Virus record (IMG/VR): IMGVR_UViG_3300034082_002962
Coordinates: 1-37,861 of that record
DNA length: 37,861 nt
Reading direction: 5' to 3' (one strand)
DNA from: a virus
The position numbers were made by a program, and so were the translations under genes. Under the pieces are notes generated by a model that saw only the letters and a program-made list of their open reading frames with translations, did not search any database and was not told the origin of the DNA. This document shows, piece by piece, positions 3,879 through 16,745 of this stretch. How positions within the stretch are numbered: the first letter of the stretch is position 1; each line of letters begins with the position of its first letter.

Positions 3879-3881
3879 CCG

Positions 3882-4343: not shown

Positions 4344-4350
4344 AATTGTA

Positions 4351-4428: not shown

Positions 4429-4596
4429 TTAGTTTTTTACTGGTACTAGAGCTGTTCTTTTAATTAAGAATACTCGGTGTTCGTTTAGACGCCGCACCGT
4501 GAGATATTCTTCACCTTCGATTACAGATATATTACGAAGGTCATCACACACAACACGCTCGCGAGTTCTGGGATTTTCGAATATAATTGACTTCAT
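4429..4596 (-). CDS. Conserved 55-residue phage protein
   Basis: A short frame from ATG 4596 to TAA 4431-4429, preceded by AGGAG 5 bases before the start. It begins MKSIIFENPRTRERVVCDD and continues with V-IEGEEYLTV and a basic FLIKRTAL end, a small beta-rich protein type recalled from many T4-like phages. It is divergent from the plus-strand gene at 4619, with only 22 bases between the two starts, and stops one base before tRNA-Leu(CAA). Function unknown. Confidence 0.75.
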   Translation of the reverse strand: MKSIIFENPRTRERVVCDDLRNISVIEGEEYLTVRRLNEHRVFLIKRTALVPVKN

Positions 4597-4605
4597 TGCA
4601 ACTCC

Positions 4606-4613
4606 TATAAATA
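4606..4613 (+). promoter_or_regulatory. T4-type late promoter TATAAATA
   Basis: An exact TATAAATA on the plus strand, 5 bases before the ATG of the plus-strand gene. Known T4 late promoters use this octamer as the whole recognition element. Initiation would fall at or next to the start codon, giving an almost leaderless mRNA. Confidence 0.55.
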
Positions 4614-4618
4614 TTTTT

Positions 4619-5554
4619 ATGCAACTAAAACTGATCTTTCCACATTCTCATATTTCAATCGAATTAAAACAGCATCCTACTATTGAAAAATGGTTTAAGT
4701 TTTTTCAGACATTAACTAATAATCAACCTGATTACTATCGTATGTTCTTTTCAGATGAATTTAAACTACTTTTAGGACACGATTCAGTTGATCATAAAAA
4801 ACAATGGAAAATTATTTTAGATTCTATCCACACCATGCGTACAGCGGGTTATACTATACCATTTGATCTGCCAGCCGAATTTGATTTCACCCAATCGATT
4901 CTAAACACTCTACATAGATTTTTTACCTACAACTGCGATTGGTGGTATCGACAGACGACCGAACCAAATCCATTTGATAAAAATTTTCGTCCGCCTGAGG
5001 ATTGGGATTTTGCCAAATGGTATAGTGTTATTGGACAGATAAACGAAGCTGTGCATTGCTTAGAAGTAACTGTAACCACACCTACCAAACTGCTTTATCA
5101 AACCAACAGTGCTGAATGGGTTTTACCCAGTTGGATAATCAATAATCCTGCCAGCATAACCGGCGAATTAATTAAGACCTGTTATTTACCGTTTGATTCC
5201 TACGACCAAAGCTTCAACTATGAACCAATGGATTTTTCTCGCGGTGCCCCGGTCACACTCAATGCCAGCATTTTAGGCAAGTGCATGCTACAGAGTTATT
5301 TTGAAGAAGATGACCCTACAGCTCGAGATGCCAGCGGCAGAGAAGGATCCTATGGCGGTTACTGCATACATCTTAATCGCCGACGCGAAGAGATTTATCG
5401 GTCAGAACATTTTCGTCAATGGGCTGCCAGATATGGTCGCACAGTTGACTCCTTGCCCTTGGAATTTCAAATTGGTCATGTGGTAGGCACCAGCATAGAA
5501 GATCTGTATAAATTTGACCCACAGCGATATATTCGCACTGAGTTCATTGATTAA
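4619..5554 (+). CDS. Unknown 311-residue plus-strand protein, probably late
   Basis: The start at ATG 4619 is chosen because it follows the TATAAATA box and because the region upstream codes for the divergent 55-residue gene. The protein is rich in aromatic residues, with no signal peptide or membrane segment. Visible features are an acidic FDLPAEFDF, a WWYRQ block and a conserved-looking C-terminal GSYGGYCIHLNRRREEIY followed by PLEFQIGHVVGTS. No family was recognised. Plus-strand orientation amid minus-strand tRNAs and a late promoter suggest late expression. No SD is visible. Confidence 0.72.
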   Translation: MQLKLIFPHSHISIELKQHPTIEKWFKFFQTLTNNQPDYYRMFFSDEFKLLLGHDSVDHKKQWKIILDSIHTMRTAGYTIPFDLPAEFDFTQSILNTLHRFFTYNCDWWYRQTTEPNPFDKNFRPPEDWDFAKWYSVIGQINEAVHCLEVTVTTPTKLLYQTNSAEWVLPSWIINNPASITGELIKTCYLPFDSYDQSFNYEPMDFSRGAPVTLNASILGKCMLQSYFEEDDPTARDASGREGSYGGYCIHLNRRREEIYRSEHFRQWAARYGRTVDSLPLEFQIGHVVGTSIEDLYKFDPQRYIRTEFID

Positions 5555-5555
5555 T

Positions 5556-5632
5556 TGGTATCCACGGAGGGATACGAGCCCCCAACCTACGGTTTCGTAA
5601 ACCGTTGCTCTATCCAGTTGAGCTACGCGGAT
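5556..5632 (-). tRNA. tRNA-Arg(ACG)
   Basis: Stem ACGGT/ACCGT with loop TTACGAA gives ACG, the A34 of which is normally read as inosine. Encoded ACCA. Confidence 0.94.
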
Positions 5633-5640
5633 GTAATAAA

Positions 5641-5787
5641 TTCAGGTGCCCCGCTATCCCTTTTGTGGGGACTCACAGGATTGTCTCGTTGAGCAAGTTT
5701 GATCACCGACTTCAGCCATATTGTTTTGTCACGTGGCAGACTGTCACGTTAGACTGGCAGGGACTCTAACTCAACGTCTATCCTGAA
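5641..5787 (-). ncRNA. Structured inter-tRNA RNA element
   Basis: The spacer between two tRNAs has no gene. On the minus strand CAGGAT/ATCCTG (outer) and CGTTGAG/CTCAACG (inner), separated by a small internal loop, close a domain at 5676-5785 that contains an ACGTG/CACGT hairpin. A CCCC/GGGG hairpin lies on the downstream side, and a 6-bp TTCAGG/CCTGAA pair can compete with the outer stem. Same design as the other closed spacers but no sequence match. Confidence 0.42.
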
Positions 5788-5790
5788 ACT

Positions 5791-5885
5791 TGGTAGTAGC
5801 GTAGAGATTCGAACTCTATCGTTGCAGCCCATCTGACCACTCTCCCGGGTTTATAAAACCCAGCCGCATACCAATGCTCGCTACT
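5791..5885 (-). tRNA. Atypical tRNA, Ile(TAT)-like, 95 nt
   Basis: The acceptor AGTAGCG/CGCTACT is perfect, the T arm is TAGAG/CTCTA and ACCA is encoded. A TGGGT/ACCCG stem holds loop TTTATAA (anticodon TAT). The D arm is very short (CAT/ATG) and about 27 bases separate the anticodon stem from the T arm, much more than in an isoleucine tRNA. It may be a hybrid or interrupted tRNA. Confidence 0.6.
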
Positions 5886-5890
5886 ATTTT

Positions 5891-5968
5891 TGGAAGTAAG
5901 GGTGGGATTCGAACCCACGGTTGTAGAGATTTGCAGTCACTTGCCTTGGTCCACTCGGCCACCTTACT
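5891..5968 (-). tRNA. tRNA-Cys(GCA)
   Basis: Acceptor AGTAAGG/CCTTACT with U73 as in cysteine tRNAs, loop CTGCAAA giving GCA, and CCA encoded. The anticodon stem has one T-T mismatch. Confidence 0.88.
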
Positions 5969-5976
5969 ATTATTGT

Positions 5977-6052
5977 TGGTGCTGATGGTGAGGATTGAAC
6001 TCACGACCTCATCCTTACCAAGGATGCGCGACTACCACTGTGCTACATCAGC
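5977..6052 (-). tRNA. tRNA-Thr(GGT)
   Basis: Acceptor GCTGATG/CATCAGC, stem CATCC/GGATG with loop TTGGTAA giving GGT, and encoded ACCA. Confidence 0.95.
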
Positions 6053-6058
6053 GAACCG

Positions 6059-6544
6059 TTATGCTGCCTTTGCCTGCATGTCTAGTACTTCTTTTAGACG
6101 ATCTGCAGCGTACGATGCAGCGAAAGCTTGTGGCTTAACAAAAGGCACAACATTACACATACCTTTGATGTAGCCAATAGCTTCGTTTACCACACATGAA
6201 CTACCATGCAATTCACTTGGGTTGATATCCAAGTGAACTTCTACAATACGATCTTCCAAAACATCTTGCAGCTTTAGGTACAGCTCTGCAATCTTGTACA
6301 CTTCCGTCATTAGTCGCATGCGTGGCTTGTCTTTTTTGCTATCCCAATCACGTTCACGTTGTACTTCGCCGAAAATCTTACAACCGTTGTTACCATTGAT
6401 GTGAACAACGATAGCTAGAGTGTAATCGGCGAACCATGCTCCATCTAAGGAGAATCGAGAACTGTCGCCCCCGATGTAAATCTTGGTACCGGGACCTTGA
6501 GCTTCGATGAACTGCCGTACTTCATCAATGTTAATCTTACGCAT
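6059..6544 (-). CDS. RNase H-like nuclease, YkuK/DUF458-like
   Basis: A 161-residue protein starting at ATG 6544 with GAGAGG upstream. IYIGGDSSR near residue 22 opens an RNase H-like strand with the first acidic residue. The middle carries KKDKPRMRLMTEVYKIAELYLKL, and the end has VHLDINPSELHGSS and EAIGYIKGMCN followed by VKPQAFAASYAAD, matching the pattern of the YkuK (DUF458) RNase H-related family. The substrate is unknown. It is flanked by tRNA genes, so a role in tRNA or RNA handling is possible but only inferred. Confidence 0.78.
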   Translation of the reverse strand: MRKINIDEVRQFIEAQGPGTKIYIGGDSSRFSLDGAWFADYTLAIVVHINGNNGCKIFGEVQRERDWDSKKDKPRMRLMTEVYKIAELYLKLQDVLEDRIVEVHLDINPSELHGSSCVVNEAIGYIKGMCNVVPFVKPQAFAASYAADRLKEVLDMQAKAA

Positions 6545-6586
6545 TATAACCTCTCGTTTGTTAGCGTACTTTTTACTACAAAAACT

Positions 6587-6661
6587 TGGCGGGTCAACTA
6601 GGACTCGAACCTAGAACAAGGGTTTTGGAGACCCACGTGTTGCCAATTACACCATTGGCCC
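6587..6661 (-). tRNA. tRNA-Trp(CCA)
   Basis: Loop CTCCAAA gives CCA on a TGGGT/ACCCT stem. Discriminator G and encoded CCA. One C-A mismatch in the acceptor. Confidence 0.93.
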
Positions 6662-6669
6662 GTAAAACT

Positions 6670-6745
6670 TGGAGCGGGTAAGGAGGCTCGAACTCCTGAC
6701 ATCTTCCTTGGCAAGGAAGTGCTCTACCAACTGAGCTACACCCGC
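6670..6745 (-). tRNA. tRNA-Gly(GCC)
   Basis: Stem CTTCC/GGAAG with loop TTGCCAA gives GCC. U73 and encoded CCA. Confidence 0.95.
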
Positions 6746-6788
6746 ATTAAACTATTTTACTACATACCTTAGTATATAGCAACGAACT

Positions 6789-6863
6789 TGGTGGACCGTG
6801 GGAGAATCGAACTCCCGCTTCATGCTTGCAAAGCACATGTGCTACCACTATCACTAACAGCCC
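6789..6863 (-). tRNA. tRNA-Ala(TGC)
   Basis: Loop TTTGCAA gives TGC; the acceptor GGGCTGT/ACGGTCC pairs with two G-U pairs; encoded ACCA. The usual G3-U70 alanine identity pair is present. Confidence 0.94.
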
Positions 6864-6870
6864 ATAAAAC

Positions 6871-6945
6871 TGGTACTCGGTATTGGTAACGATCCAATAT
6901 CTGCGCCTTATCAAGACGCTGCTAATCCATTTCAGCTAACCGAGC
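6871..6945 (-). tRNA. tRNA-Ile(GAT)
   Basis: Stem GCGTC/GGCGC with loop TTGATAA gives GAT. Acceptor GCTCGGT/ACCGAGT, encoded ACCA. It follows module 4 by six bases. Confidence 0.94.
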
Positions 6946-6951
6946 ATTAAA

Positions 6952-7038
6952 CAATTTATTGAGTACACTGGCAACTTTGATTCGAGCAATAGCGTGTCAT
7001 TGACACTCGATCGTAACTCCAGTGTACTCAATAAATTG
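6952..7038 (-). ncRNA. Structured RNA module 4 (perfect 20-bp closing stem)
   Basis: CAATTTATTGAGTACACTGG and its exact reverse complement (6952-6971 and 7019-7038) close this 87-base element. Inside, a TCGAG/CTCGA stem holds a GTGTC-AAT-GACAC hairpin. The arm shares ATTGA-R-TACACT with modules 1-3, so it is placed in the same family. It lies directly upstream of tRNA-Ile(GAT). Confidence 0.62.
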
Positions 7039-7172
7039 TAGTGGTTGTCCCACTACTGTCCATCTTACTCTTGCTGTTGCCGCCAGCAATTTCACATCCG
7101 GAACCCCGCCCATTCGAGCATGTTTAACGTGGGCTCAAGGTTCTCGTTACCTATTCCACGTACTGCTGAAAA
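7039..7172 (-). ncRNA. Structured non-coding region upstream of module 4
   Basis: No gene is seen here. On the minus strand GTAGTGG-5-CCACTAC and TTGCTG-7-CAGCAA are solid hairpins. GAACC..GCCC pairs with GGGC..GGTTC, and ACGTGG with CCACGT in its loop, which can form a pseudoknot or a competing fold. Together with module 4 this gives about 220 bases of continuous structured RNA. Confidence 0.4.
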
Positions 7173-7200
7173 CAAAAAACCCTAGGGTTTAGCCTAGGGT
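7173..7200 (-). terminator. Rho-independent terminator
   Basis: On the minus strand ACCCTAGG-CTAAA-CCTAGGGT forms an 8-bp GC-rich hairpin followed by TTTTTTG. It ends the short unit that starts at the promoters 7402-7430 and 7484-7512. Confidence 0.85.
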
Positions 7201-7230
7201 CTGTGTAGTTTTGGATATTAGCTTATTAGC

Positions 7231-7392
7231 TCAACTATCCCTTTCTCCACGGACCCGACTCGTTCCCTCTGGTGTGCGATCACTCTTAATATTCAAGCCC
7301 GCAAACGCACACGCTGACCAATAGGCGACTGTGCCTAGTTGGGGCTGTTGTGAGGATATCTGCGAGAGATGTTTAAGTGTGTTCATTTTCAT
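7231..7392 (-). other. Short transcription unit: small RNA or 53-residue ORF
   Basis: Between the promoter at 7402-7430 and the terminator at 7173-7200 a transcript of about 220 bases is expected. It contains an open frame of 53 residues from ATG 7392, but that start would lie only a few bases from the transcription start and has no SD. The frame is basic at its end, has no recognised family, and may be chance. A non-coding RNA is the simpler reading. Confidence 0.4.
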
Positions 7393-7401
7393 ATTAAAGT
7401 A

Positions 7402-7430
7402 ATTGTACTGCAAAGACCATTGCTGGTCAA
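7402..7430 (-). promoter_or_regulatory. Sigma70-type promoter
   Basis: TTGACC (7430-7425), 17 bases and TACAAT (7407-7402) on the minus strand. First promoter upstream of the short unit ending at the 7173-7200 terminator. Confidence 0.8.
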
Positions 7431-7483
7431 CCTGTATTTCTATTTAGTCCTAAGAAATCACTTGTTTAATTTCTTAAAACACG

Positions 7484-7512
7484 ATTGTACTGCAAAGACA
7501 GTTTCCTGTCTA
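7484..7512 (-). promoter_or_regulatory. Sigma70-type promoter (second, tandem)
   Basis: TAGACA (7512-7507), 17 bases and TACAAT (7489-7484). Its spacer end (TGTCTTTGCAG) is nearly the same as in the promoter 80 bases downstream, so the pair looks like a duplication. Confidence 0.65.
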
Positions 7513-7521
7513 CCGGTATTT

Positions 7522-7803
7522 TTATTTAGCTTGTCCAAAAATATTGCTCCACGTGTGCAGCTTTTCTATCTTTCTTTCGGCAGCAGCTTCCAAACCATCT
7601 GCTGAAATGACACCTTCATCAATCAGCAACTTCATCATTGCCATGACATCACCCAACTCTTGTTCCAACATTTCTCTATGCGGAACATTGGTCTTGTAGT
7701 GTTGTGAGTCTATGCCAAACCTGCGGCACTTGCTGACTTCAACAATGACCTCCCCACATTCTTCTTGCAGGATGTCTAGTATTTCTTGTACTGTTTCTTT
7801 CAT
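7522..7803 (-). CDS. MazG-like nucleotide pyrophosphohydrolase
   Basis: A 93-residue protein starting at ATG 7803, chosen for AAGG six bases upstream. It shows the all-alpha MazG/HisE pattern: LQEECGEVIVEVSK near residue 10 gives the E-E-x-x-E metal-binding helix, and LEQELGDVMAMMKLL near residue 48 gives the E-x-x-D second helix. Such enzymes hydrolyse NTPs or dNTPs to NMP and PPi. Phage versions may trim unwanted nucleotides or lower (p)ppGpp. A second, longer MazG-like gene is at 15908. Confidence 0.82.
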   Translation of the reverse strand: MKETVQEILDILQEECGEVIVEVSKCRRFGIDSQHYKTNVPHREMLEQELGDVMAMMKLLIDEGVISADGLEAAAERKIEKLHTWSNIFGQAK

Positions 7804-7813
7804 TTTAACCTTA

Positions 7814-7898
7814 TGGTACGAGAGATGGGACTTGAACCCATAATCCTTACGGCGCAAAATTTTAAGTCTTGTGTGTATACCAATTCCACCACTCTCGC
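7814..7898 (-). tRNA. tRNA-Leu(TAA)
   Basis: A class II tRNA; stem CAAGA/TTTTG with loop CTTAAAA gives TAA. Acceptor GCGAGAG/CTCTCGT, long variable arm, encoded ACCA. Confidence 0.94.
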
Positions 7899-7906
7899 TT
7901 TATTGT

Positions 7907-7981
7907 TGGCCCGGCGTGCAGGAATCGAACCCACATTCTAGAGGTAGAAGCTCTATGTTCTATCCGTTGAACTAACGCCAG
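7907..7981 (-). tRNA. tRNA-Arg(TCT)
   Basis: Stem TAGAG/CTCTA with loop CTTCTAC gives TCT. Discriminator G and encoded CCA. Confidence 0.94.
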
Positions 7982-7986
7982 ATATT

Positions 7987-8062
7987 TGGTGCCCCCGGAG
8001 GGATTTGAACCCCCGACCAAGCGATTATGAGTCGCCTGCTCTCACCACTGAGCTACAGGGGC
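7987..8062 (-). tRNA. tRNA-Ile2(CAT), lysidine type
   Basis: Anticodon loop CTCATAA gives CAT. The whole anticodon arm and the sequence around it (GCAGGCGACTCATAATCGCT) match what I recall of the E. coli isoleucine-2 tRNA, so C34 is probably changed to lysidine by host TilS and reads AUA. Encoded ACCA. First tRNA of the cluster. Confidence 0.85.
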
Positions 8063-8067
8063 AAAAC

Positions 8068-8322
8068 TTATTTATTTTGCAATTTGCGAGCCACTTCCGC
8101 CTGATCAATATTAAACATGGCCACACGGAATCGGATCCAGGCATACACCAGGTCCACAAAGTTCATGGCAAAGCCCACAACAATAACGGTCAGCGGCCAT
8201 GGACTAGGACAGCCTGCTGCCAACATGATCAAACCAATTACGACAACAATAGCACCCCAAAAGCTCAAACTACGAGTGCAGCCTTGAAATTCCCAACGCA
8301 CGAACGATACAATCTTTTTCAT
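8068..8322 (-). CDS. Small membrane protein with two TM segments
   Basis: An 84-residue protein starting at ATG 8322 with AAAGGA 8 bases upstream and a promoter at 8352-8380. Residues 22-37 (GAIVVVIGLIMLAAG) and about 43-62 form two hydrophobic helices with a short loop; both ends are charged. Small two-helix proteins of this type occur in T4-like phages of aquatic hosts, with no known role. First gene of the tRNA-cluster transcript. Confidence 0.75.
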   Translation of the reverse strand: MKKIVSFVRWEFQGCTRSLSFWGAIVVVIGLIMLAAGCPSPWPLTVIVVGFAMNFVDLVYAWIRFRVAMFNIDQAEVARKLQNK

Positions 8323-8381: not shown

Positions 8382-8603
8382 CTACGACCATTTCAGCATG
8401 AATCCGGTATAGTCTTTGTCCAACATGTAAACCTCTCCATGTTCGGCAGTTGAAGTAATGTGTACTGCTATGCCATACCATTCCAGGATGTACCCTTTGA
8501 GCGTCGCGACATTGACAGCATAACTGGTACCGTGTGCAGTTTCAACACGACCAACGAAGTCTGCCCAAAACTCAGGATATGATTTGAGATTGACTTTCTT
8601 CAC
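8382..8603 (-). CDS. FxLKW-array paralogue 21 (last)
   Basis: A 73-residue protein ending in DKDYTGFMLKWS, the array signature. The start is GTG 8603, whose GTGA overlaps the upstream stop; a GTG two codons earlier is possible. The N-terminal half (YPEFWADFVGRVETAHGTSYAV) differs from its neighbours. A predicted helix is followed by strands V-ITSTAEHGEVYML before the motif. Last gene before the tRNA-cluster promoter. Function unknown. Confidence 0.8.
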   Translation of the reverse strand: MKKVNLKSYPEFWADFVGRVETAHGTSYAVNVATLKGYILEWYGIAVHITSTAEHGEVYMLDKDYTGFMLKWS

Positions 8604-8821
8604 AGCCACCGCATGCTGAAGAACGTGGCATCCGGGCCGTCATGAAAGAAAAATACCCAAGGATTGCTGTTGCCCTGGTTGCCCCATTTTCGGCCAATTC
8701 GGCCCATGTTGTCTTCCAACCATAGCCGAGCCTCCCAGGGATCTTTATCCATATTGTGATAATCCATTTCTACCACATACTTCCAGTACCTACGTGCTCG
8801 TCTTCGTTGATAACTATTCAT
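8600..8821 (-). CDS. FxLKW-array paralogue 20
   Basis: A 73-residue protein, ATG 8821 overlapping the upstream stop as ATGA. The basic start (QRRRARRYWKYV) is followed by WEARLWLEDNMGRIGRKWG, the helix seen in several members (W-x-x-x-x-G), then WVFFFHDGPDATFFSMRWL. The final motif is a variant with M for L and R for K. Unknown function. Confidence 0.8.
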   Translation of the reverse strand: MNSYQRRRARRYWKYVVEMDYHNMDKDPWEARLWLEDNMGRIGRKWGNQGNSNPWVFFFHDGPDATFFSMRWL

Positions 8822-9015
8822 TTTAAAAATTTCAAAGTAAACCAGGCGTAGTCTTTTTCTTGATCAAAACATATTGTATATAACCATTCGTTGGTGACAA
8901 AATCATGGTGCCCGTTGGCCAGTCGTAGTCCTGGCCACCGTTCCTGAAGAATTTCTTCAGTTTTTTCAATATCCACTTGGGTCGGGTATCTACATTTATA
9001 CGGAGTTTTTATCAT
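8818..9015 (-). CDS. FxLKW-array paralogue 19
   Basis: A 65-residue protein from ATG 9015 (ATGA overlap with the upstream stop). It has an acidic helix VDIEKTEEILQERWPGL and a strand WLYTICFDQEKDYAWFTLKFLK, with F in place of the motif W and two added residues. A start two codons upstream is open but less likely, since it lies inside the previous coding end. Confidence 0.8.
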   Translation of the reverse strand: MIKTPYKCRYPTQVDIEKTEEILQERWPGLRLANGHHDFVTNEWLYTICFDQEKDYAWFTLKFLK

Positions 9016-9353
9016 GACCATTTCAACATGAAGAACTCTGCATCTTCTGCTCGACCAAATAAGATACGATCACTGAACACATAGTATCCACCCTGGCACG
9101 TTTCTTTGGCCCAAGCTTCAATCACTGCATCACCAGCTGCTCGTGCTGATTTAGAAAATAGTATTTCTATCCAATTTTTGCGACCAGGGTCTATCTCACA
9201 AAGAACATTCCAGTCAATTTCCCTTTGAATGTCAAGCCCCATTATGGTCATTAGCTCTTCCTCAGCATCAAACGTCCACGTGGCCTTTAGCTGTCGTGAT
9301 GGCACATTGACCTGTGTTCTTACTATTTTAATATTGCTATTGCTATTTGTCAT
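9012..9353 (-). CDS. FxLKW-array paralogue 18 with capsid-like N-terminus
   Basis: At 113 residues this is the longest member. Start ATG 9353 (TAATG overlap). Residues 12-45, including SRQLKATWTFDAEEEL and then GLDIQREIDW, resemble a segment I recall from T4-type major capsid proteins (S/T-R-x-LKA-x-x-T-x-E-x-x-x-x-L, later DAE-EL and EI-x-REI). The rest, with AEDAEFFMLKWS at the end, is the array domain. The resemblance needs an alignment; if real, this is a fusion. Confidence 0.78.
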   Translation of the reverse strand: MTNSNSNIKIVRTQVNVPSRQLKATWTFDAEEELMTIMGLDIQREIDWNVLCEIDPGRKNWIEILFSKSARAAGDAVIEAWAKETCQGGYYVFSDRILFGRAEDAEFFMLKWS

Positions 9354-9622
9354 TATGCCCACTTCAGCATAAACATTGTAGCATACTTCTCATGATCAAA
9401 TGAGAATATATATGTGACCTGATCTCGATCTCTACCATCATGTGTGCATTGCCATGTTCCGTCGCGTCCAAACCGTGGCTGATCAACAGGCCGATCAACA
9501 ATACTGAATCTTATGCCAAACTGTTCATGACACCATGAGCACATTCTTTCAATCTCCGCCGCAGATTTATCATGTATTTTGACTTTATGTTCCAGCCTGG
9601 ATTGTTTGTCAACTCGAATCAT
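9353..9622 (-). CDS. FxLKW-array paralogue 17
   Basis: An 89-residue protein from ATG 9622 (ATGA overlap). It contains the recurring helix IERMCSWCHEQFG, then an RDGTWQC segment and VTYIFSFDHEKYATMFMLKWA. The W-C-x-E-Q-F-G block recurs in paralogues 3, 11 and 16, which ties the members together beyond the C-terminal motif. Unknown function. Confidence 0.82.
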   Translation of the reverse strand: MIRVDKQSRLEHKVKIHDKSAAEIERMCSWCHEQFGIRFSIVDRPVDQPRFGRDGTWQCTHDGRDRDQVTYIFSFDHEKYATMFMLKWA

Positions 9623-9825
9623 GACCACTTCAACAAGAACCATTCACAATCTGCTGCATTCTTGAATTCAAATACACCTTCACTATTATAACGCCAGCGA
9701 TCTTGCCAATCAAACTGTTCATAGCCGAACTCTTGCTCGCACCATTCCATACAAGGAGTCCATCCCCATGTACCCACAGGTGCCGGGACCGAAGCCACAT
9801 GCCACTCATGATTGTATCTGATCAT
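9619..9825 (-). CDS. FxLKW-array paralogue 16
   Basis: A 68-residue protein from ATG 9825 (ATGA overlap). CMEWCEQEFGYEQFDWQDRWRYN is the helix-turn core shared with paralogue 11 (CYDWCGEQFGSEHFAW). It ends VFEFKNAADCEWFLLKWS. This pair gives the clearest pairwise similarity in the array. Confidence 0.82.
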   Translation of the reverse strand: MIRYNHEWHVASVPAPVGTWGWTPCMEWCEQEFGYEQFDWQDRWRYNSEGVFEFKNAADCEWFLLKWS

Positions 9826-9983
9826 GACCACTTCAACATAAACATAGTAGCTTCTGCCTCATCGATAAAATAATAACAAATTTTGTTGCCTGGCTGTGCT
9901 GTGTTGGTAATATAACCGGGACAATTTTTTATTGCCCAATCCACTGCCCGCCATAATGGATCGTATGGTAGTGTGACTGTCAT
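9822..9983 (-). CDS. FxLKW-array paralogue 15 (shortest, 53 aa)
   Basis: A 53-residue frame from ATG 9983 to TGA 9824-9822. Both ends overlap neighbours as ATGA, so the gene fills an apparent gap in the array exactly. It reads DPLWRAVDWAIKNCPGYIT, then KICYYFIDEAEATMFMLKWS. The VDWAIKNC block matches IDWAVDNC of paralogue 2. It probably shows the minimal form of the domain: one helix, one or two strands and the C-terminal motif. Confidence 0.82.
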   Translation of the reverse strand: MTVTLPYDPLWRAVDWAIKNCPGYITNTAQPGNKICYYFIDEAEATMFMLKWS

Positions 9984-10159
9984 GACCATTTCAATTTAAA
10001 AAATGTTTCTTGTTCAGGCACCTCAAATGAAATATTTCCATTTTCGACAGTTCCACCATACAAGCGGATACAGGCATCAACACCTGCTATGGTACATGTG
10101 CCCTTTTGTTCTAACACATGCCACATTATCTTATATTGATAATCATTGAATTTTAACAT
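9980..10159 (-). CDS. FxLKW-array paralogue 14
   Basis: A 59-residue protein from ATG 10159 (TAATG overlap). It has a start region MLKFNDYQYKIMWHVLEQ, then CTIAGVDACIRLYGG and a beta strand NISFEVPEQETFFKLKWS. The helix motif is degenerate (DACIRLYGG in place of W-C-x-E-x-x-G). Confidence 0.8.
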   Translation of the reverse strand: MLKFNDYQYKIMWHVLEQKGTCTIAGVDACIRLYGGTVENGNISFEVPEQETFFKLKWS

Positions 10160-10356
10160 TACGCCCACCTCAACTGAAACATAGTTGCCAATTCGGGATC
10201 TTCAAACTCAATCCAGGGGTAGAAGCTTTTTCGTTGAACTGGGAATACACCCTGTGTGTACAACCAGTATCGAAATTCTTCCGAGTTGCTGTTGCGGTTT
10301 TCTAACCACCATTCAGCAGCATTGGCCCAGTAAGGTTCGATAGGCAATCTGATCAT
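10159..10356 (-). CDS. FxLKW-array paralogue 13
   Basis: A 65-residue protein from ATG 10356, chosen because its ATGA overlaps the stop of the upstream zinc-ribbon gene; longer in-frame extensions run back through that gene. It contains NAAEWWLENRNSNSEEF and ends IEFEDPELATMFQLRWA. It resumes the array after the two zinc-ribbon genes. Confidence 0.8.
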   Translation of the reverse strand: MIRLPIEPYWANAAEWWLENRNSNSEEFRYWLYTQGVFPVQRKSFYPWIEFEDPELATMFQLRWA

Positions 10357-10550
10357 TTTAGAATACGGTATTTTTTGTGTGTCCAATTGCAACTGACACA
10401 TGTTCTTGAAGTCATATACTTGGCACCGTAGCCCTGCACCAGTTCTAAGTCGGTCCATCGACTCCAGCGATGCCAACCAACTCTGCACAAACGACGCTCG
10501 ACTACCAAGGGCTGATCTGCCAGGGCTCTGAATGTGTTTTCTTTATTCAT
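10353..10550 (-). CDS. Small zinc-ribbon-like protein A
   Basis: A 65-residue protein from ATG 10550, overlapping the upstream gene by eight bases. It has C-x-x-x-WHRWSRW in the middle and TCVSCNWTHKKYR near the end, so two cysteine-containing knuckles with a histidine can bind one zinc. It is a paralogue of the next gene upstream. Small C/H ribbon proteins of this layout are common in phages; some bind nucleic acid, but no role is known. No FxLKW motif is present. Confidence 0.72.
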   Translation of the reverse strand: MNKENTFRALADQPLVVERRLCRVGWHRWSRWTDLELVQGYGAKYMTSRTCVSCNWTHKKYRILK

Positions 10551-10764
10551 TTTTCTTTGTCAATGTTTTGCTGTAGGGACTTTCGTATCTGACACGTCCG
10601 CAGTCGGCACAATAGCATCGTAATCTGTCACCAAACCTGCCTGCATTCCAATCCTCTTCGATCACACTCCAGGTAGTCCAGCGATGCCAGTCTAACCGAT
10701 AGCAACGAAATCGCTGTATGGGATCTTGGCCTTTGATAACTCTGCTGGTATTTTGTTTGCTCAT
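10543..10764 (-). CDS. Small zinc-ribbon-like protein B
   Basis: A 73-residue protein from ATG 10764 (ATGA overlap). RCYRLDWHRWTTW and CYCADCGRVRY give the same C-x4-WHRW plus C-x-x-C pattern as its downstream paralogue at 10353. A basic tail (SKTLTKKNE) follows. The pair interrupts the FxLKW array but keeps the overlap pattern, so both travel in the same transcript. Confidence 0.72.
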   Translation of the reverse strand: MSKQNTSRVIKGQDPIQRFRCYRLDWHRWTTWSVIEEDWNAGRFGDRLRCYCADCGRVRYESPYSKTLTKKNE

Positions 10765-11042
10765 AAAAATTTTAACCTAAACATTGTGGCTGCTGCTTCA
10801 TCGTCGATCTTGACAAACCATGTGGTCTGGAAATGATCTCCTACTGTTTCAGACCGAGTACCCCATTCCCACCCTGCCCCTACGTATGCTCTACCGTATT
10901 CCTGTTCAACTTCTCTGTAGTATGCACCTACATTTTCTTCCAGCCAGGAGATCATTTGTTTCTTGGTATTCACCGTAGGGCTCTTTGATCTATCTCGATA
11001 TTGCAATCTTGCCAGGACCTGTTCGCTTATGTCAATTATCAC
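10761..11042 (-). CDS. FxLKW-array paralogue 12
   Basis: A 93-residue protein from GTG 11042, the only in-frame start near the upstream stop, with an 11-base overlap. Features are KKQMISWLEENVGAYYREVEQ (the array helix, W-L-E-E-N-x-G), a glycine/tryptophan turn and TTWFVKIDDEAAATMFRLKFL. The motif W is replaced by F. Unknown function. Confidence 0.78.
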   Translation of the reverse strand: MIIDISEQVLARLQYRDRSKSPTVNTKKQMISWLEENVGAYYREVEQEYGRAYVGAGWEWGTRSETVGDHFQTTWFVKIDDEAAATMFRLKFL

Positions 11043-11292
11043 GGCCCCACCTCAATGTAAACATTATAGCATCTTTTTCACGTTCGAACCAGAATTTTGA
11101 GCCAGTCCATGCAAAATGTTCTGAGCCAAATTGCTCACCACACCAATCGTAGCACACCTTATTTCTAGGACTCAAGTCCACTGAAATATACCCGTTGAGC
11201 AAAAATAAGTCATTCCAGTTTATGGGTTCTATCAATTTGCCAGAATCACGCAATTTCTGCACCTGGCGAATAAAATCCGCAATGCTAACCAT
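11032..11292 (-). CDS. FxLKW-array paralogue 11
   Basis: An 86-residue protein from ATG 11292, overlapping the upstream gene by eight bases. It starts VSIADFIRQVQKLRDSG, then INWNDLFLLNGYISVDL, then CYDWCGEQFGSEHFAWTG and FWFEREKDAIMFTLRWGRDN. The motif is followed by four more residues, one of the few members with such a tail. Confidence 0.8.
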   Translation of the reverse strand: MVSIADFIRQVQKLRDSGKLIEPINWNDLFLLNGYISVDLSPRNKVCYDWCGEQFGSEHFAWTGSKFWFEREKDAIMFTLRWGRDN

Positions 11293-11620
11293 GTTGTAAG
11301 TGGAACCATGTTTTGTCTGCCGGAGTCGCAAATACCAGCTGCCAATCTCCAGCCACATGAACAACATCATAGTTGCCGGGGAATCGAGTCTGCATACTTT
11401 TGTATATGTAATCTCTGCGAACTGTCAGTGTTTCGCCCATGTCCGTGGCATAGCGTTTTAGCCATTCTTGCCAGGTTTCTGGAACTGCCAACCCATGTGC
11501 AATTACCCACCGAATACCTTCATATACTTCGATATTGTTAGTGGTTGTATTCACCCGCATGCTGCCTATGGCAGGTTCTACTGGTCCGCTGGCGATTCGT
11601 CGGATTCCGGTGCTCGCCAT
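11285..11620 (-). CDS. FxLKW-array paralogue 10 with virion-like N-terminus
   Basis: A 111-residue protein from ATG 11620 (TAATG overlap). Residues 16-34, GSMRVNTTTNNIEVYEGIR followed by W, match a short repeat recalled from phage tail and fibre proteins (G-x-M-x-x-N-T-x-T-x-x-x-E-x-Y-x-G-x-x-W). The C-terminal part, ETWQEWLKRYATDMGE and WQLVFATPADKTWFHLQHG, is a divergent array domain that has lost the K-W pair. Like paralogue 18 it looks like a fusion. Confidence 0.76.
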   Translation of the reverse strand: MASTGIRRIASGPVEPAIGSMRVNTTTNNIEVYEGIRWVIAHGLAVPETWQEWLKRYATDMGETLTVRRDYIYKSMQTRFPGNYDVVHVAGDWQLVFATPADKTWFHLQHG

Positions 11621-11865
11621 TATAACCACCTCAACTTAAACCATGTGGCCAATTCTTCTCTGGCAAAGTGCCATGTGGTCATGCCAAATGAATAGCTATA
11701 GGACCAGGGGTATTCATCTGATACTTGATCACGGAACTCTGCTTTGGGGCCTAGGTTGGCATCACACCATTCTTCCATTGCTCCAGTATGTACTACAAAT
11801 ATTTTTGAATCTTTTTGATCTGTGGTCATATAAAATGACATCATTTTGACTTCGGCCGCTATCAT
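11620..11865 (-). CDS. FxLKW-array paralogue 9
   Basis: An 81-residue protein from ATG 11865 (ATGA overlap). It contains GAMEEWCDANLGPKAEFRDQ, the array helix, and ends MTTWHFAREELATWFKLRWL. The strand before the motif (SYSYSFGM) is rich in aromatic residues. Unknown function. Confidence 0.8.
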   Translation of the reverse strand: MIAAEVKMMSFYMTTDQKDSKIFVVHTGAMEEWCDANLGPKAEFRDQVSDEYPWSYSYSFGMTTWHFAREELATWFKLRWL

Positions 11866-12119
11866 AGGTTCAAGTACCGCATGCTAAAGAAAGTTTCTTG
11901 TGCATCGTTCCAAAAGTCCAGGTACACACCCTCTTCGGGTCTGCCATAATACTGTTCACCGAGCTTGTTCTTTCCTAACTCAGGATACTCTCTATAATTG
12001 CGTACAGTAAAACCCAGGACTTCTCGCTGTTTCCAGCTGATGGCCCATACTGATGCAGGATACTCTGCCCGGATGCGATCCAGTACAGGCAACCACTGTT
12101 TAATTGTCAGCTTGATCAT
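11862..12119 (-). CDS. FxLKW-array paralogue 8
   Basis: An 85-residue protein from ATG 12119 (ATGA overlap). It has TIKQWLPVLDRIRAEYPAS, then a YPELGKNKLGEQYYGRPEEG loop and VYLDFWNDAQETFFSMRYLNL. The motif is diverged (F-S-M-R-Y) and has two extra residues, much as in paralogue 20. Confidence 0.78.
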   Translation of the reverse strand: MIKLTIKQWLPVLDRIRAEYPASVWAISWKQREVLGFTVRNYREYPELGKNKLGEQYYGRPEEGVYLDFWNDAQETFFSMRYLNL

Positions 12120-12382
12120 TGTACCCACTTCAGTATAAACATCGCAGCATCACTCTTGTTCTTAAAATGAAATTTACCCGGGCCCATGTACACCCACGCA
12201 TTGTTGCGACCCCATGTGGCCAAGCACCAATCATAACAGTCACTCCAGGGATGGTAGGGCCAGTTGTTTGGCAAAGTGACAACAGTCCAGGTTGGGCCTA
12301 TCTTGTGATATGTGTCCATTTCTGCCATAACCTGATCATGGTCTTTTTGCCACGCAGCATGTTGTGATTCGTATTCGGTCAT
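12116..12382 (-). CDS. FxLKW-array paralogue 7
   Basis: An 88-residue protein from ATG 12382 (ATGA overlap). A charged N-terminal helix of about 25 residues (QHAAWQKDHDQVMAEMDTY) precedes the core SDCYDWCLATWGRNNAW and FHFKNKSDAAMFILKWVQ. The added N-terminal helix is not shared with neighbours. Confidence 0.82.
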   Translation of the reverse strand: MTEYESQHAAWQKDHDQVMAEMDTYHKIGPTWTVVTLPNNWPYHPWSDCYDWCLATWGRNNAWVYMGPGKFHFKNKSDAAMFILKWVQ

Positions 12383-12597
12383 GAAAACCTCAATAAAAAC
12401 CAAGCAGCATCAGCATCGTTCTCAAATACAAACCAGTAGAAGCCAACTCCGCTATCTATTTCACCATTCCATTCTGCTAATGCAGTATTATAACCATCGG
12501 GATCTCCTGGCGTTGTACAACCACACTCAGTAATAAAATTTATATACCATGGTTCTAAATTTGTTCCTTTCATTGGTGTCAAAAATTTAGCCATCAT
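12379..12597 (-). CDS. FxLKW-array paralogue 6
   Basis: A 72-residue protein from ATG 12597 (ATGA overlap; a second ATG follows directly). It contains EPWYINFITECGCTTPGD and YWFVFENDADAAWFLLRFS. The motif has F for W. Confidence 0.8.
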   Translation of the reverse strand: MMAKFLTPMKGTNLEPWYINFITECGCTTPGDPDGYNTALAEWNGEIDSGVGFYWFVFENDADAAWFLLRFS

Positions 12598-12773
12598 GAC
12601 CACTTCAATGAAAACATTATGGCATCCTGTTCGTGCTTGAACCAAAATCCGTCATACGTGTGATCCCAGGTTTGTAAGTCTATCTGCTCGCGTAACCATA
12701 TCCAAGCCGGCTCCTTAATGTTAGCCGCGGACACAAAAATCCATGGTTCTTGGCTCATTCCCCTTTCAGTCAT
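12594..12773 (-). CDS. FxLKW-array paralogue 5
   Basis: A 59-residue protein from ATG 12773 (ATGA overlap). EPWIFVSAANIKEPAWIWLREQIDLQTW precedes GFWFKHEQDAIMFSLKWS. The EQDAIMF block is almost the same as EKDAIMF in paralogue 11. Confidence 0.82.
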   Translation of the reverse strand: MTERGMSQEPWIFVSAANIKEPAWIWLREQIDLQTWDHTYDGFWFKHEQDAIMFSLKWS

Positions 12774-12985
12774 TCCCATTTCAATGCAAACCACACAGCA
12801 TCTTGTTTGAGTTCAAATTCAGCATGAGAATATCCAAAGACCATAAAGAACTTACCGGTACTTGGATACAATTGTAGCATACGTTTGATATCTTGCCAAG
12901 AACAATTGGCCATCCTGGCTCGGTTTATTCTGACTCGATGCCAGCATCGTTCCCTAATCTTCTTATCTTTGTTCCAGTATTTCAT
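12770..12985 (-). CDS. FxLKW-array paralogue 4
   Basis: A 71-residue protein from ATG 12985 (ATGA overlap). The N-terminal half is strongly basic (KKIRERCWHRVRINRAR), then SWQDIKRMLQLYPS and a strand leading to FELKQDAVWFALKWE. The basic start could contact nucleic acid. Confidence 0.81.
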   Translation of the reverse strand: MKYWNKDKKIRERCWHRVRINRARMANCSWQDIKRMLQLYPSTGKFFMVFGYSHAEFELKQDAVWFALKWE

Positions 12986-13233
12986 GACCACCTCAACAAG
13001 AACGCTGTACAATCCTGAGGATTGCGAAAGTAGTAAGTGCTGTGCCTGTCCAAGCTGATACTCCATCTGCGGTCTTCTGGTAGAACAGCGTCATCCAGGG
13101 GACCAAACTGTTCTATACACCACAACAATTTTTCAGACAACACAAGGCGCAGCCAGGGATCAACGGACATACAGGCAACCTGTTTCCAAACTGTGCCGTT
13201 GCTGCGATGATAATCGCTGACTCTAAATTTCAT
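12982..13233 (-). CDS. FxLKW-array paralogue 3
   Basis: An 83-residue protein from ATG 13233 (ATGA overlap; an upstream ATG two codons earlier is possible). It has EKLLWCIEQFGPLDDAVLPED, the array helix, then RWSISLDRHSTYYFRNPQD and CTAFLLRWS. Unknown function. Confidence 0.82.
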   Translation of the reverse strand: MKFRVSDYHRSNGTVWKQVACMSVDPWLRLVLSEKLLWCIEQFGPLDDAVLPEDRRWSISLDRHSTYYFRNPQDCTAFLLRWS

Positions 13234-13436
13234 AGCCATTTCAACTCAAACAATAATTGATCTCTAGATTCCTTAAATTCAATTTCTAACTTAAACCAAC
13301 AGTCTCGTTCTGCCTTTTCTTCGTAGTCCAACTCCAACATCTTGTAGCCCACAAAACTGCTACAGTTATCTACTGCCCAGTCTATCATGCCGTCAAAGTC
13401 ACTACCGGCAGCCAAGTATACTGTAGTTACGACCAT
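13230..13436 (-). CDS. FxLKW-array paralogue 2
   Basis: A 68-residue protein from ATG 13436, which lies inside the upstream KW codons (10-base overlap). FDGMIDWAVDNCSSFVGYKML matches paralogue 15. It ends FKLEIEFKESRDQLLFELKWL. Confidence 0.8.
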   Translation of the reverse strand: MVVTTVYLAAGSDFDGMIDWAVDNCSSFVGYKMLELDYEEKAERDCWFKLEIEFKESRDQLLFELKWL

Positions 13437-13663
13437 TTCAATACAAACAGTAATTGTGTGTCGTCATCTACATGATCGTTGACTTCAATAGTGTAAATTG
13501 GATTGTATGTTCCATCCTCTGTCGTAGCCTGTGTCCAAAGATGCCAGCCCAGGCTTTGAATATTCGATCCATGGACATACACTTCGGGCCCTACATGTTG
13601 TACAAGCCATTGCACACATGCTCGAGCACGATACACATCTGTGGTTTTAATTTTCTGCATCAT
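13427..13663 (-). CDS. FxLKW-array paralogue 1 (first)
   Basis: A 78-residue protein; two adjacent ATGs (13663, 13660) can serve as start, inside the end of the upstream gene. RACVQWLVQHVGPEVYVHG is the array helix and IYTIEVNDHVDDDTQLLFVLKWS the end. This opens the run of 21 members downstream of the 14697 promoter. Confidence 0.8.
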   Translation of the reverse strand: MMQKIKTTDVYRARACVQWLVQHVGPEVYVHGSNIQSLGWHLWTQATTEDGTYNPIYTIEVNDHVDDDTQLLFVLKWS

Positions 13664-14213
13664 CAAGCACTATCCATCCAAGTTGAAACAAATCTGCACG
13701 AATTTCGTCTGTGACCACACCTTCTGTCACATAGCTACTGCCATCAGCTTCTACTTCGGGTACTGTACCCGATAACCCGTAGCCATCTTCACTGCTGCCA
13801 ATACCGCTACAGTACCAGTCAATATAGTCGCCCGATTCACACATGTCAGCAACAATGCCGCCAGCTCTGCGCCAGCTGACACTCCATTTTTGATCTGTCA
13901 GAATAGGCCAGGTGTTGTTGCGTTGGAACTCTCGGTTGCACATGGCAGCATATAGATTTTGTGCGTAGTTTTTACTGCCGCGAACTCGTGACAGCATGTG
14001 CTCGCTGGTACGCAGATCATATTCCATGTTGTCCTTTTGCCATTCAGGGTCTACAAGATCAGCTTCATCTTGTTCTTTGGCAGTTTTCCAGAATTCAAGA
14101 TAGTGCTCTGGAACTTCCTCACCCTTTTCCTCCGCACGTTTGGTTGCTGCTTCGACTTGAAAGGTATGGCGTTCAGGGCTGCTGCTGGGTTTAGTTGAGC
14201 GATCTTTTGTCAT
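13647..14213 (-). CDS. Conserved T4-like phage protein, 188 aa
   Basis: Start ATG 14213 is chosen because longer extensions run through the previous gene. A charged N-terminal helix (residues 25-70) precedes SKNYAQNLYAAMCNREF, SWRRAGGIVADMCESGDY and IDWYCSG, then VVTDEIRADLFQLGW near the end. This series of blocks is recalled from a conserved protein of unknown function in T4-like cyanophages and related phages. It is co-transcribed with the paralogue array but lacks its C-terminal motif. Confidence 0.8.
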   Translation of the reverse strand: MTKDRSTKPSSSPERHTFQVEAATKRAEEKGEEVPEHYLEFWKTAKEQDEADLVDPEWQKDNMEYDLRTSEHMLSRVRGSKNYAQNLYAAMCNREFQRNNTWPILTDQKWSVSWRRAGGIVADMCESGDYIDWYCSGIGSSEDGYGLSGTVPEVEADGSSYVTEGVVTDEIRADLFQLGWIVLDDAEN

Positions 14214-14430
14214 CGCTGCGCTCCAATGCAGCAATAATTTGCTGCCGTGTATCTTCATCCAGCTCTTCAATGTCCTCATCAGTCAGCTCCGCGCTGTTTT
14301 CAAACAGCAGGCCCGACTCGGCAAATTCCTGGATTTGTTTTACAAACTCATCCAGTTCCTCTTGAGTACCTTCAAAGTTGTTGAAACAACCTGGATCAAA
14401 AATTAATTTGAGTGGTTTCTTTTCAGTCAT
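14191..14430 (-). CDS. Small acidic protein
   Basis: A 79-residue acidic protein from ATG 14430 (TGATG overlap with the upstream stop). It is helical, with EGTQEELDEFVKQIQEFAESG and a very acidic ELTDEDIEELDEDTRQQI region. Acidic helical proteins of this size in phages are often partner-binding or DNA-mimic proteins, but nothing here shows it. It overlaps the downstream gene by 23 bases. Confidence 0.7.
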   Translation of the reverse strand: MTEKKPLKLIFDPGCFNNFEGTQEELDEFVKQIQEFAESGLLFENSAELTDEDIEELDEDTRQQIIAALERSDDKRSLN

Positions 14431-15907: not shown

Positions 15908-16312
15908 TTATTCTCGGTTGATATATTTTGCCAATTCAGGCGGCTGCCATCCGGTTGGCTTCATGACCTTGCCATCTTCACGCTTACGAACACGACCAGT
16001 TAAGCTATCAATCTTGGCAAAGTTTGTGCTCATAACTTCCTTCCAAGCACCTTCGGCATCAACACCTAGTGATTGTAAAGCACCCACAGTCACAACCATA
16101 ATGTCGATTAGGGCATCAAGTGTTTCAACTTTATCAACTGGCAAATAACCGATACGATCAAGATTCTGATTTAAGCCTTGAGCTTCCAGTAATTCGTTGT
16201 ATTCTTCCTTGATAAGTTTTAGATACAGTTTAAATTGATCTTCGTTAGACTCGCCCACTGTTTGTTCGCAGGCCTTCATAAATTTTGCTTGGTCTCTAAA
16301 CACGTTGCTCAT
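15908..16312 (-). CDS. MazG-like NTP pyrophosphohydrolase
   Basis: A 134-residue protein from ATG 16312 with GAGGAA upstream. KLYLKLIKEEYNELLEA supplies the E-E-x-x-E helix, and ETLDALIDIMVVTVGALQSLGVD the E-x-x-D helix. The C-terminal AKIDSLTGRVRKREDGKVMKP is typical of phage members of the MazG/phosphoribosyl-ATP pyrophosphohydrolase-like group. It should hydrolyse nucleoside triphosphates. It is separate in sequence from the shorter MazG-like protein at 7522. Confidence 0.85.
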   Translation of the reverse strand: MSNVFRDQAKFMKACEQTVGESNEDQFKLYLKLIKEEYNELLEAQGLNQNLDRIGYLPVDKVETLDALIDIMVVTVGALQSLGVDAEGAWKEVMSTNFAKIDSLTGRVRKREDGKVMKPTGWQPPELAKYINRE

Positions 16313-16745
16313 TGGCTTGTTCCTCAGTGTGAAATGGTCCACGATACGGATATCGTTGTAGTGTAATTAGTTTGGGACAAAATTCTGTTGTCCAACTACG
16401 ACCTTGCTTGACTTGATACCAGCCGGCTGCGTACCAACTTTTACTGCGAGGTTCTTGAGTCCAAAGAGGTACCTGGTGTTTGACATCGTATATGGCATTA
16501 AATGCCTGCCCGGCTGTAGGGTATCCGTGCGCTGAATTTAAACTGACAGCAGCCGGTCTTTTAGCAACAGGTTCGAATGCAATTGCTATTTTTTGTTTGA
16601 TAACATTGATGTTCTTATAACGCTGTGTGTGGTCACCAATTTTTACGCTGAAGCCATCTGCACCGGCTTCTATATTGCCAACTTTGTTCTCGCCATCTTT
16701 TAGAATCCAAAATTGATTTGGTACAACAGTTTTAGCTATGATCAT
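16296..16745 (-). CDS. Conserved T4-like phage protein, 149 aa
   Basis: Start ATG 16745 with AGGAG six bases upstream, overlapping the exonuclease end by 14 bases. It begins IIAKTVVPNQFWILKDGENKV and GNIEAGADGFSVKIGD, a beta-rich domain, and has LNSAHGYPTAGQAFNAIYDV then a C-terminal half with PLWTQEP and WYQVKQGRSW. I recall this block order from T4-like cyanophages; the function is unknown. It follows the exonuclease and may act in DNA metabolism. Confidence 0.78.
   Translation of the reverse strand: MIIAKTVVPNQFWILKDGENKVGNIEAGADGFSVKIGDHTQRYKNINVIKQKIAIAFEPVAKRPAAVSLNSAHGYPTAGQAFNAIYDVKHQVPLWTQEPRSKSWYAAGWYQVKQGRSWTTEFCPKLITLQRYPYRGPFHTEEQANEQRV

Follow-up and report, generated by a model that had tools for sequence, protein, structure and literature searches.

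Background

Why do 21 small genes in a single stretch of viral DNA, differing widely at their front ends, all close with nearly the same five residues? The stretch is the IMG/VR virus record IMGVR_UViG_3300034082_002962 (positions 1 to 37,861; this whole 37,861-base stretch is called the window below), which comes from a giant environmental virus of bacteria and carries T4-type replication genes, and the genes in question form an array at positions 8382-13663 of its minus strand. The best matches of the DNA polymerase are those of Sinorhizobium phage Phosso, Agrobacterium phage Atu_ph07, and Salicola phage SCTP-2, so the window is akin to T4-related large phages. We propose that the array is a series of interchangeable gene cassettes, in which the last codons of each gene would encode the closing helix of its protein and also provide the ribosome-binding site of the gene that follows. 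The answer matters for understanding how phages assemble their accessory genes and keep renewing them.

Results

A shared C-terminal signature closes the array genes

Twenty-three consecutive small genes are found at 8382-13663 on the minus strand, of which 21 have F-x-[L/M]-[K/R]-[W/F], or a near variant of it, at the C-terminus and encode proteins of 53-113 amino acids (aa). The variants are FHLQHG (11285-11620), FFSMRYLNL (11862-12119), and three ends with F replacing W (genes at 12379, 10761, and 8818); the other two genes of the 23 are adjacent, of the CxxC type, and without the motif (10353-10550 and 10543-10764). When the motif was defined strictly (F-x-[LM]-[KR]-[WF] plus at most three residues ahead of the stop codon, in open reading frames (ORFs) of at least 45 aa), it closed 18 ORFs in 8382-13669; first-order Markov resamples of the same DNA averaged 0.01 such ORFs and never exceeded 1, and the remaining 32.6 kb of the window had none. 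The initial annotation of this DNA, made from the letters alone, had described 21 small genes with a common C-terminal signature, many of them with a helix carrying W-C-x-E-x-x-G; both observations are confirmed, and the array is real.

A profile built only from proteins of other phages, with no window protein included, recognised 17 of the 21 members at E < 1e-3, about three further members at E 0.003-0.009, and the 11285 member at E 0.013; the member at 11862 was not recognised (E 19). After the last 11 residues had been cut off, eight window members still matched this profile at E of about 1e-3 or better, and membership of the remaining ones rests mainly on the motif, orthologues, and synteny. 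The larger independent profile was needed, as a profile from the window genes alone found no significant homology beyond the motif for most members.

The motif marks one large family of viral proteins

The DNA pattern of the gene joints, TTYNNNTTGARRTGGTCATGA, was searched in IMG/VR and found at 119 loci at least (counts derived from IMG/VR are lower bounds). In the collected loci the motif stands exactly one residue ahead of the stop in 503 ORFs (0-28 for other distances). Counted from the motif phenylalanine, the preferred residues are hydrophobic at -11, F at -9, D/N at -7, E/D at -6, D at -4, A at -3, F at 0 (95%), L at +2 (96%), K/R at +3, and W at +4 (94%). One BLASTP cluster (E < 1e-6) unites 404 of the 502 strict members, and a profile from 320 diverse members detected 676 ORFs at E < 0.01 in 122 of 200 sequences, 133 of them without the strict motif. 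A single homologous C-terminal domain behind variable front ends, as the initial annotation had it, is supported by these searches, and the motif marks one family (here FxLRW) rather than a generic ending of many. The window genes display its diagnostic features, i.e., a match to the C-terminal profile and a hydrophobic-x-F strand followed by D-A-x-x-F-x-L-[K/R]-W.

In uncultured large phages related to T4, family arrays run to about 40 members, and orthologous subfamilies recur in phages that are only distantly related. About 54 family genes are scattered in Sinorhizobium phage Phosso, a cultured representative that makes the function of the family testable. In a profile search of cultured phages Phosso gave 30 matches, Atu_ph07 five weaker ones, and GAP32 one, with none in SCTP-2 or Vibrio 2.275.O. 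A tblastn search with concatenated members against 50,697 cultured phages returned nothing at E 0.01; since the profile did match Phosso, BLAST alone misleads for the FxLRW family. The C-terminal domain had no recurrent match in Pfam, PHROGs, NCBIfam, PADLOC, or PDB sequences, the sole recurrent known-family matches being those of N-terminal pieces to Gp23/major head protein, and no description of the family was found in the open-access literature (subscription papers lay outside the search). A scan of cellular genomes with the joint pattern gave 11 matches in 257 Gb, a number estimated to be close to what chance would give, and only one of them, L366, is a real array. L366 is a 6.4-kb contig with a dense family array in the Bacteroidetes metagenome-assembled genome UBA11400, and is probably a phage contig binned with its host. 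Judged by these comparisons, FxLRW appears to be a virus-specific, large, and previously unrecognised family of small proteins.

The motif codons coincide with a predicted ribosome-binding site

Gene ends in the window follow the pattern TTT-NNN-TTG-A(A/G)(A/G)-TGG-TC[ATGA], in which the motif codons coincide with a Shine-Dalgarno site and the overlapping start of the next gene. The sequence GAGGUGGUC can pair with the 16S rRNA 3' end over nine consecutive base pairs (-14.1 kcal/mol, computed). Most loci were themselves fetched by a pattern containing TTGARRTGG, and ORFs matching the search pattern were removed for the codon tests. The motif arginine was encoded by AGG in 105/155 members at ATGA overlaps and 38/44 at TAATG, and in 5/17 without a downstream start; AGG makes up about 8% of arginine codons in gene bodies and 1/35, 0/40, and 4/53 at the control arginine positions -5, -7, and -8. 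The F codon of the motif is little shifted. Mean pairing with the 16S end was -8.22 kcal/mol, compared with -4.27 for the same amino acids with resampled codons. With pattern matches excluded, the mean pairing at joints was -8.12 kcal/mol from family to family gene, -7.10 from family to other, -5.46 from other to family, and -4.55 from other to other. The site appears to travel with the upstream member, whatever gene follows, and codon choice and pairing energy suggest that ribosomes use it.

Where the arginine codon was CGN, TGG was still kept in 44 of 45 cases, and the protein level must therefore also be under selection. Two one-sided accounts of the motif were rejected: a purely RNA-level motif is contradicted by this retention of TGG and by the presence of the motif on terminal genes, and a purely protein-level motif by the codon tests. 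Because the codons would form the next gene's ribosome-binding site, it is probably the RNA that in part holds L-[KR]-W in its strict place and keeps it nearly invariant. The initial annotation had taken the strict C-terminal position as a sign of repeated duplication with selection on one anchor domain; the homologous domain stands, but its C-terminal placement and near-invariance are probably not owed to the protein alone. In Phosso the F-x-L core is kept, K/R occupies the fourth position in only 13 of 47 members, and the listed 3' codons of its family members show no Shine-Dalgarno bias.

Gene map of the array

The genes are listed below in the order of transcription; L numbers denote related loci.

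13647-14279, minus strand: conserved gene, present once, that forms the fixed upstream border of the array in relatives; belongs to no known family
13427-13663, minus strand: member 1, 78 aa, ends LLFVLKWS; orthologues in L279, L281, L282, L283, and L293
13230-13436, minus strand: member 2, 68 aa, ends LLFELKWL; orthologues in L281, L293, L028, L013, and L007
12982-13233, minus strand: member 3, 83 aa, ends AFLLRWS
12988-12996, minus strand: example of an embedded ribosome-binding site (predicted pairing), TTGAGGTGG, made by the L-R-W codons of member 3, with member 4 starting at the ATGA behind it
12770-12985, minus strand: member 4, 71 aa, ends WFALKWE
12594-12773, minus strand: member 5, 59 aa, ends MFSLKWS
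12379-12594, minus strand: member 6, 71 aa, ends WFLLRFS; missing from the close relative L281
12116-12382, minus strand: member 7, 88 aa, ends MFILKWVQ
11862-12119, minus strand: member 8, 85 aa, ends FFSMRYLNL; weakest member
11620-11865, minus strand: member 9, 81 aa counted from the ATGA start, ends WFKLRWL
11285-11620, minus strand: member 10, 111 aa, degenerate end WFHLQHG
11032-11292, minus strand: member 11, 86 aa, ends MFTLRWGRDN
10761-11042, minus strand: member 12, 93 aa from GTG (start uncertain), ends MFRLKFL
10543-10764, minus strand: CxxC basic gene without the motif, paralogue of 10353-10550 by eye; relative in L052
10353-10550, minus strand: CxxC basic gene without the motif
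10159-10356, minus strand: member 13, 65 aa, ends MFQLRWA
9980-10159, minus strand: member 14, 59 aa, ends FFKLKWS
9822-9983, minus strand: member 15, 53 aa, minimal domain, predicted beta-alpha-beta-beta-alpha, pLDDT 96.6
9619-9825, minus strand: member 16, 68 aa, ends WFLLKWS, predicted beta-alpha-beta-beta-alpha, pLDDT 80
9353-9622, minus strand: member 17, 89 aa, ends MFMLKWA
9012-9353, minus strand: member 18, 113 aa, ends FFMLKWS; N-terminal part gp23-derived
9213-9341, minus strand: gp23-derived stretch of member 18, residues 5-47 matching positions 133-175 of Pfam Gp23 (profile match)
8818-9015, minus strand: member 19, 65 aa, ends WFTLKFLK
8600-8821, minus strand: member 20, 73 aa, ends FFSMRWL
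8382-8603, minus strand: member 21, 73 aa from GTG, ends FMLKWS; last member, motif kept without a coupled gene behind it
8068-8322, minus strand: conserved gene that borders the array on its downstream side; its L293 counterpart is 68% identical

The two CxxC genes (10353-10764) overlap each other, and their relative in L052 (7230-7427) also lies among family members. The N-terminal segment GSMRVNTTTNNIEVYEGIRW of member 10 resembles a fibre/tail segment, which Pfam did not confirm.

Members are gained, lost, and reordered among relatives

In L281 the window order is kept behind the common upstream border gene, minus 12379-12594 and both CxxC genes. Seven of the 21 window members recur in L293, in unchanged order and flanked by the same two border genes, together with two members peculiar to L293 (an array of nine); L294-L300 have one member beside the common upstream border gene, and many relatives have none. 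In L293 a different gene precedes the orthologue of 10159-10356, and the two loci become similar exactly from the ATGA onward. In 273 orthologue pairs (non-independent) with unrelated upstream neighbours, identity is near chance 5' of the ATG except in the motif codons, and high 3' of it. Among 68 pairs of arrays sharing at least four members, 50 are collinear and 18 rearranged; the check proposed with the initial annotation, whether arrays of related phages vary in number and order, came out positive. The pooled pN/pS of array genes was 0.29 and 0.28, and a value of about 0.28 indicates that the genes are maintained. We infer that cassettes move by recombination within the shared ends.

Predicted fold and protein properties

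AlphaFold2 was run on two members, 9619-9825 and 9822-9983. Both models have a beta-alpha-beta-beta-alpha core (pLDDT 80 and 96.6, respectively), so that the check for unrelated folds returned one topology; the motif forms the last helix in each (motif helix pLDDT of about 91 in 9619-9825). VIA-align against PDB gave Z scores up to 6.9 (an ACT domain) and about 5.5-6.0 (RRMs), with a root-mean-square deviation of about 2 A over 51-53 residues. The best Foldseek E value was 0.12, and the BFVD library returned many uncharacterised proteins of uncultured phages. The predicted core has the b-a-b-b-a order of strands and helices in common with RRM, ACT, and ferredoxin-like folds, but unlike them it has no fourth strand, and it shares no sequence similarity with them, the Z scores being of the level of a common arrangement; the resemblance of the models to these folds appears to carry no functional information. 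Family members are rich in tryptophan (about 6%). No hydrophobic segment was found in 502 members, and a membrane-protein reading was rejected in favour of soluble proteins.

Some members carry pieces of the major capsid protein

Member 18 (9012-9353) matches Pfam Gp23 (PF07068) with 28.0 bits (cut-off 24.4, E 1.8e-6) and gave E 2e-8 in a further gp23 search. In a scan of 140 long members, Gp23/major head protein was the only recurrent known family. Two array proteins of G003, a 320-kb phage with 41 members, carry pieces of its own gp23 (residues 159-218, 43%; residues 67-91, 56%), and one family gene of Phosso has a gp23 C-terminal region; no donor other than gp23 was found at E 0.01 for overlapping pieces of the G003 and Phosso proteins. 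In total, 16 distinct ORFs of 856, from about a dozen phages, have gp23 stretches (two of them weak), which fall in three regions of the profile (about 56-109, 156-220, and 325-379), and a reversed-gp23 control gave no matches. The matches span only about 25-60 positions of the 376-position profile of the full HK97-fold protein. What these members share with Gp23 is an N-terminal piece of 25-60 residues; they differ from it in being fragments fused to the family domain, with full gp23 encoded elsewhere in the same phages. A spine-type piece compared between G003 and G017 gave dN 0.175 and dS 0.650, indicating purifying selection; the N-arm pair is too alike for a verdict.

Gp23 pieces were also seen in short ORFs outside the family count, namely L018 11602-11970, L053 7304-7672, and L058 11568-11909, possibly decayed fusions, and in a 228-residue ORF outside the family (L391, Phosso 182280-182546) with an N-arm piece.

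The Gol peptide, which binds EF-Tu, sits in the first quarter of gp23, reportedly its most conserved part (PMC3014915), and the N-arm piece falls in the same quarter, as judged by region. Direct triggering of immunity by capsid proteins is on record (PMC9712102). The gp23-derived N-termini may be the first concrete hook for the adaptor or decoy role that the initial annotation had suggested.

Neighbouring genes

Directly downstream of the array are 22 tRNA genes (ARAGORN; 403-8062, all on the minus strand), and the tRNA cluster of L293 likewise adjoins its array; the association holds for these two and is absent in most arrays. MazG/PRA-PH-like nucleotide pyrophosphohydrolase genes flank the array (7522-7857 and 15908-16342), and Phosso also has a MazG gene adjoining family members. 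QueE, QueD, FolE, and TGT/DpdA-like genes, assigned by eye (19360-20241, 27991-28506, 28516-29211, and 33343-34863), make 7-deazaguanine DNA modification possible. Candidate genes resembling GIY-YIG homing endonucleases lie at 1777-2316 and 31783-32406, and candidate NAD-dependent epimerase-, aminotransferase-, transketolase-, and methyltransferase-like genes at 20803-27188, as in cyanophage sugar-nucleotide clusters.

Discussion

A proposed cassette explanation of the array

We propose that the array consists of interchangeable small-gene cassettes, each coding for a soluble protein built on a domain of about 50 residues (beta-alpha-beta-beta-alpha), whose last helix, D/E-x-x-D-A-x-x-F-x-L-[K/R]-W, would end the protein. 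In this lineage the codons of that helix, TTG-AGG-TGG-TC (in weaker form TTG-AAG/AAA-TGG), would also form a Shine-Dalgarno site, and the stop codon of the cassette would overlap the next start (ATGA or TAATG), whichever gene follows. As each cassette would supply its successor's ribosome-binding site, members could be gained, lost, and reordered one by one with the operon still translated; protein and RNA selection on the same dozen nucleotides may in this way make genes interchangeable. We regard this explanation, taken as a whole, as probable. At the level of sequence, the data support the family, its predicted core, the codon bias, the association of the site with the upstream gene, the ATG junctions, the turnover, the purifying selection, and the gp23-derived N-termini.

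Several observations weigh against it. The two CxxC genes break into the array without motif ends. The loci with biased codons are the same loci that were fetched by the TTGARRTGG-containing pattern, though pattern matches were removed, and arginines near the joint are also enriched in AGG, more mildly (5/16 at +1 and 8/26 at -3). The window array itself has mostly lysine at the motif, members with lysine show no codon bias, and TTGAAGTGG (-7.5 kcal/mol) and TTGAAATGG (-4.1 kcal/mol) are weaker sites. Phosso lacks the embedded site, and the double use of the motif is therefore a feature of one part of the family. The gp23 pieces, lastly, occur in a minority of members (16/856 ORFs).

As for what the proteins do, they would constitute a repertoire directed against the host or its defences, with the gp23-bearing members as mimics of the capsid protein. 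Host takeover or anti-defence would suit small, soluble proteins with fast turnover whose operons lie apart from the structural genes, and such a repertoire including capsid mimics is possible, though well short of probable. The gp23-bearing members would fit bait or mimicry as well as interference with capsid assembly. Doubtful, when all its parts are taken together, is an open-ended rack of cassettes in which one C-terminus is both the closing helix and the next ribosome-binding site and which holds an order-independent, host-directed repertoire, consisting in part of capsid baits.

The most specific form of mimicry would have the members act as decoys for host sensors or host factors with affinity for the major capsid protein (Lit with EF-Tu, or CapRel-type), with the C-terminal domain as a carrier that holds or blocks the sensor and other N-termini mimicking other triggers. 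The recurrence of pieces from three gp23 regions in different arrays (one Phosso gene included), the N-arm piece in the Gol quarter (PMC3014915), the direct triggering of immunity by capsid proteins (PMC9712102), and the purifying selection on the spine-type piece all point this way; yet recognisable gp23 is confined to a minority, nothing among the phage proteins matches the remaining N-termini, these phages have no known sensor or host target, and the Gol overlap is one of region only, so we put this forward tentatively. Members bearing gp23 pieces might instead co-assemble with the capsid, placing proteins in the head or poisoning the capsids of competitors, and the family would then be virion-linked. 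The N-arm, spine helix, and C-terminal pieces are plausible assembly interfaces by inference from HK97-fold capsids, but where a whole phage could be checked the arrays do not sit with structural genes (in G003 gp23 lies at 2.6-3.8 kb, the arrays at 190-213 kb), the window array is near tRNA and nucleotide-metabolism genes, and most members have no gp23 piece; this is unlikely. The recurrent fusions open a direct test of whether phages use pieces of their own capsid protein as decoys or assembly poisons.

Other accounts concern the motif and the array as such. F-x-L-[K/R]-W could be a C-terminal tag recognised by one partner (a protease adaptor, a chaperone, or a secretion or packaging machine), in keeping with its place exactly one residue ahead of the stop in 503 ORFs and with the W kept where the codons make no ribosome-binding site (44/45). 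Conservation, however, spans about 45 residues with a consistent predicted fold whose closing helix is the motif, in Phosso the last positions vary and many members have extra residues behind them, and an RNA-level role also accounts for its position, which makes a tag quite unlikely. It is distinctly improbable that the array is a near-neutral gene factory, in which duplicated fragments, capsid pieces among them, are kept by chance or selfish recombination with no organismal function: the high turnover of members between close relatives and the lack of a conserved set agree with it, but the pooled pN/pS of about 0.28 and the persistence of orthologous subfamilies across distant phages do not. 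That conservation acts purely on the protein, the ribosome-binding site being an accident of the L-R-W codons, is very improbable indeed; Phosso keeps F-x-L and often W without embedded sites, but AGG is used in 68-86% of coupled members against 8% in the background and 0-8% at controls away from the C-terminus, pairing is far above that of same-amino-acid controls, and the site belongs to the upstream cassette.

Comparison with known systems

T4-like phages have hyperplastic regions, i.e., clusters of small, variable, mostly uncharacterised early genes between conserved genes. The genes of those regions are mostly unrelated to each other, whereas one homologous domain runs throughout the array. 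The expansion of one small family in one jumbo phage has a parallel in Bacillus phage G, with about 35 copies of a zinc ribbon (PMC7824862); that family is a different one, and in the part of the account available no common C-terminal motif or modular joint is reported (PMC7824862). Translational coupling at ATGA or TAATG overlaps (PMC6728339, PMC12548453) resembles the array in its stop/start overlaps and the coupled translation expected from them, but the known cases are usually stable pairs of related function, in contrast to a chain of one family with interchangeable members and a standard joint. Another parallel is the start-associated sequence (SAS) of the cluster K mycobacteriophages (PMC3203893), a repeated conserved sequence with a Shine-Dalgarno core just 5' of the starts of many small genes. 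SAS is tied to the gene family that lies downstream of it and does not stem from a protein motif (PMC3203893), whereas in the array pairing follows the upstream member: the site is coding sequence of the last helix of the upstream protein, goes with that cassette, and is followed by the ATGA overlap.

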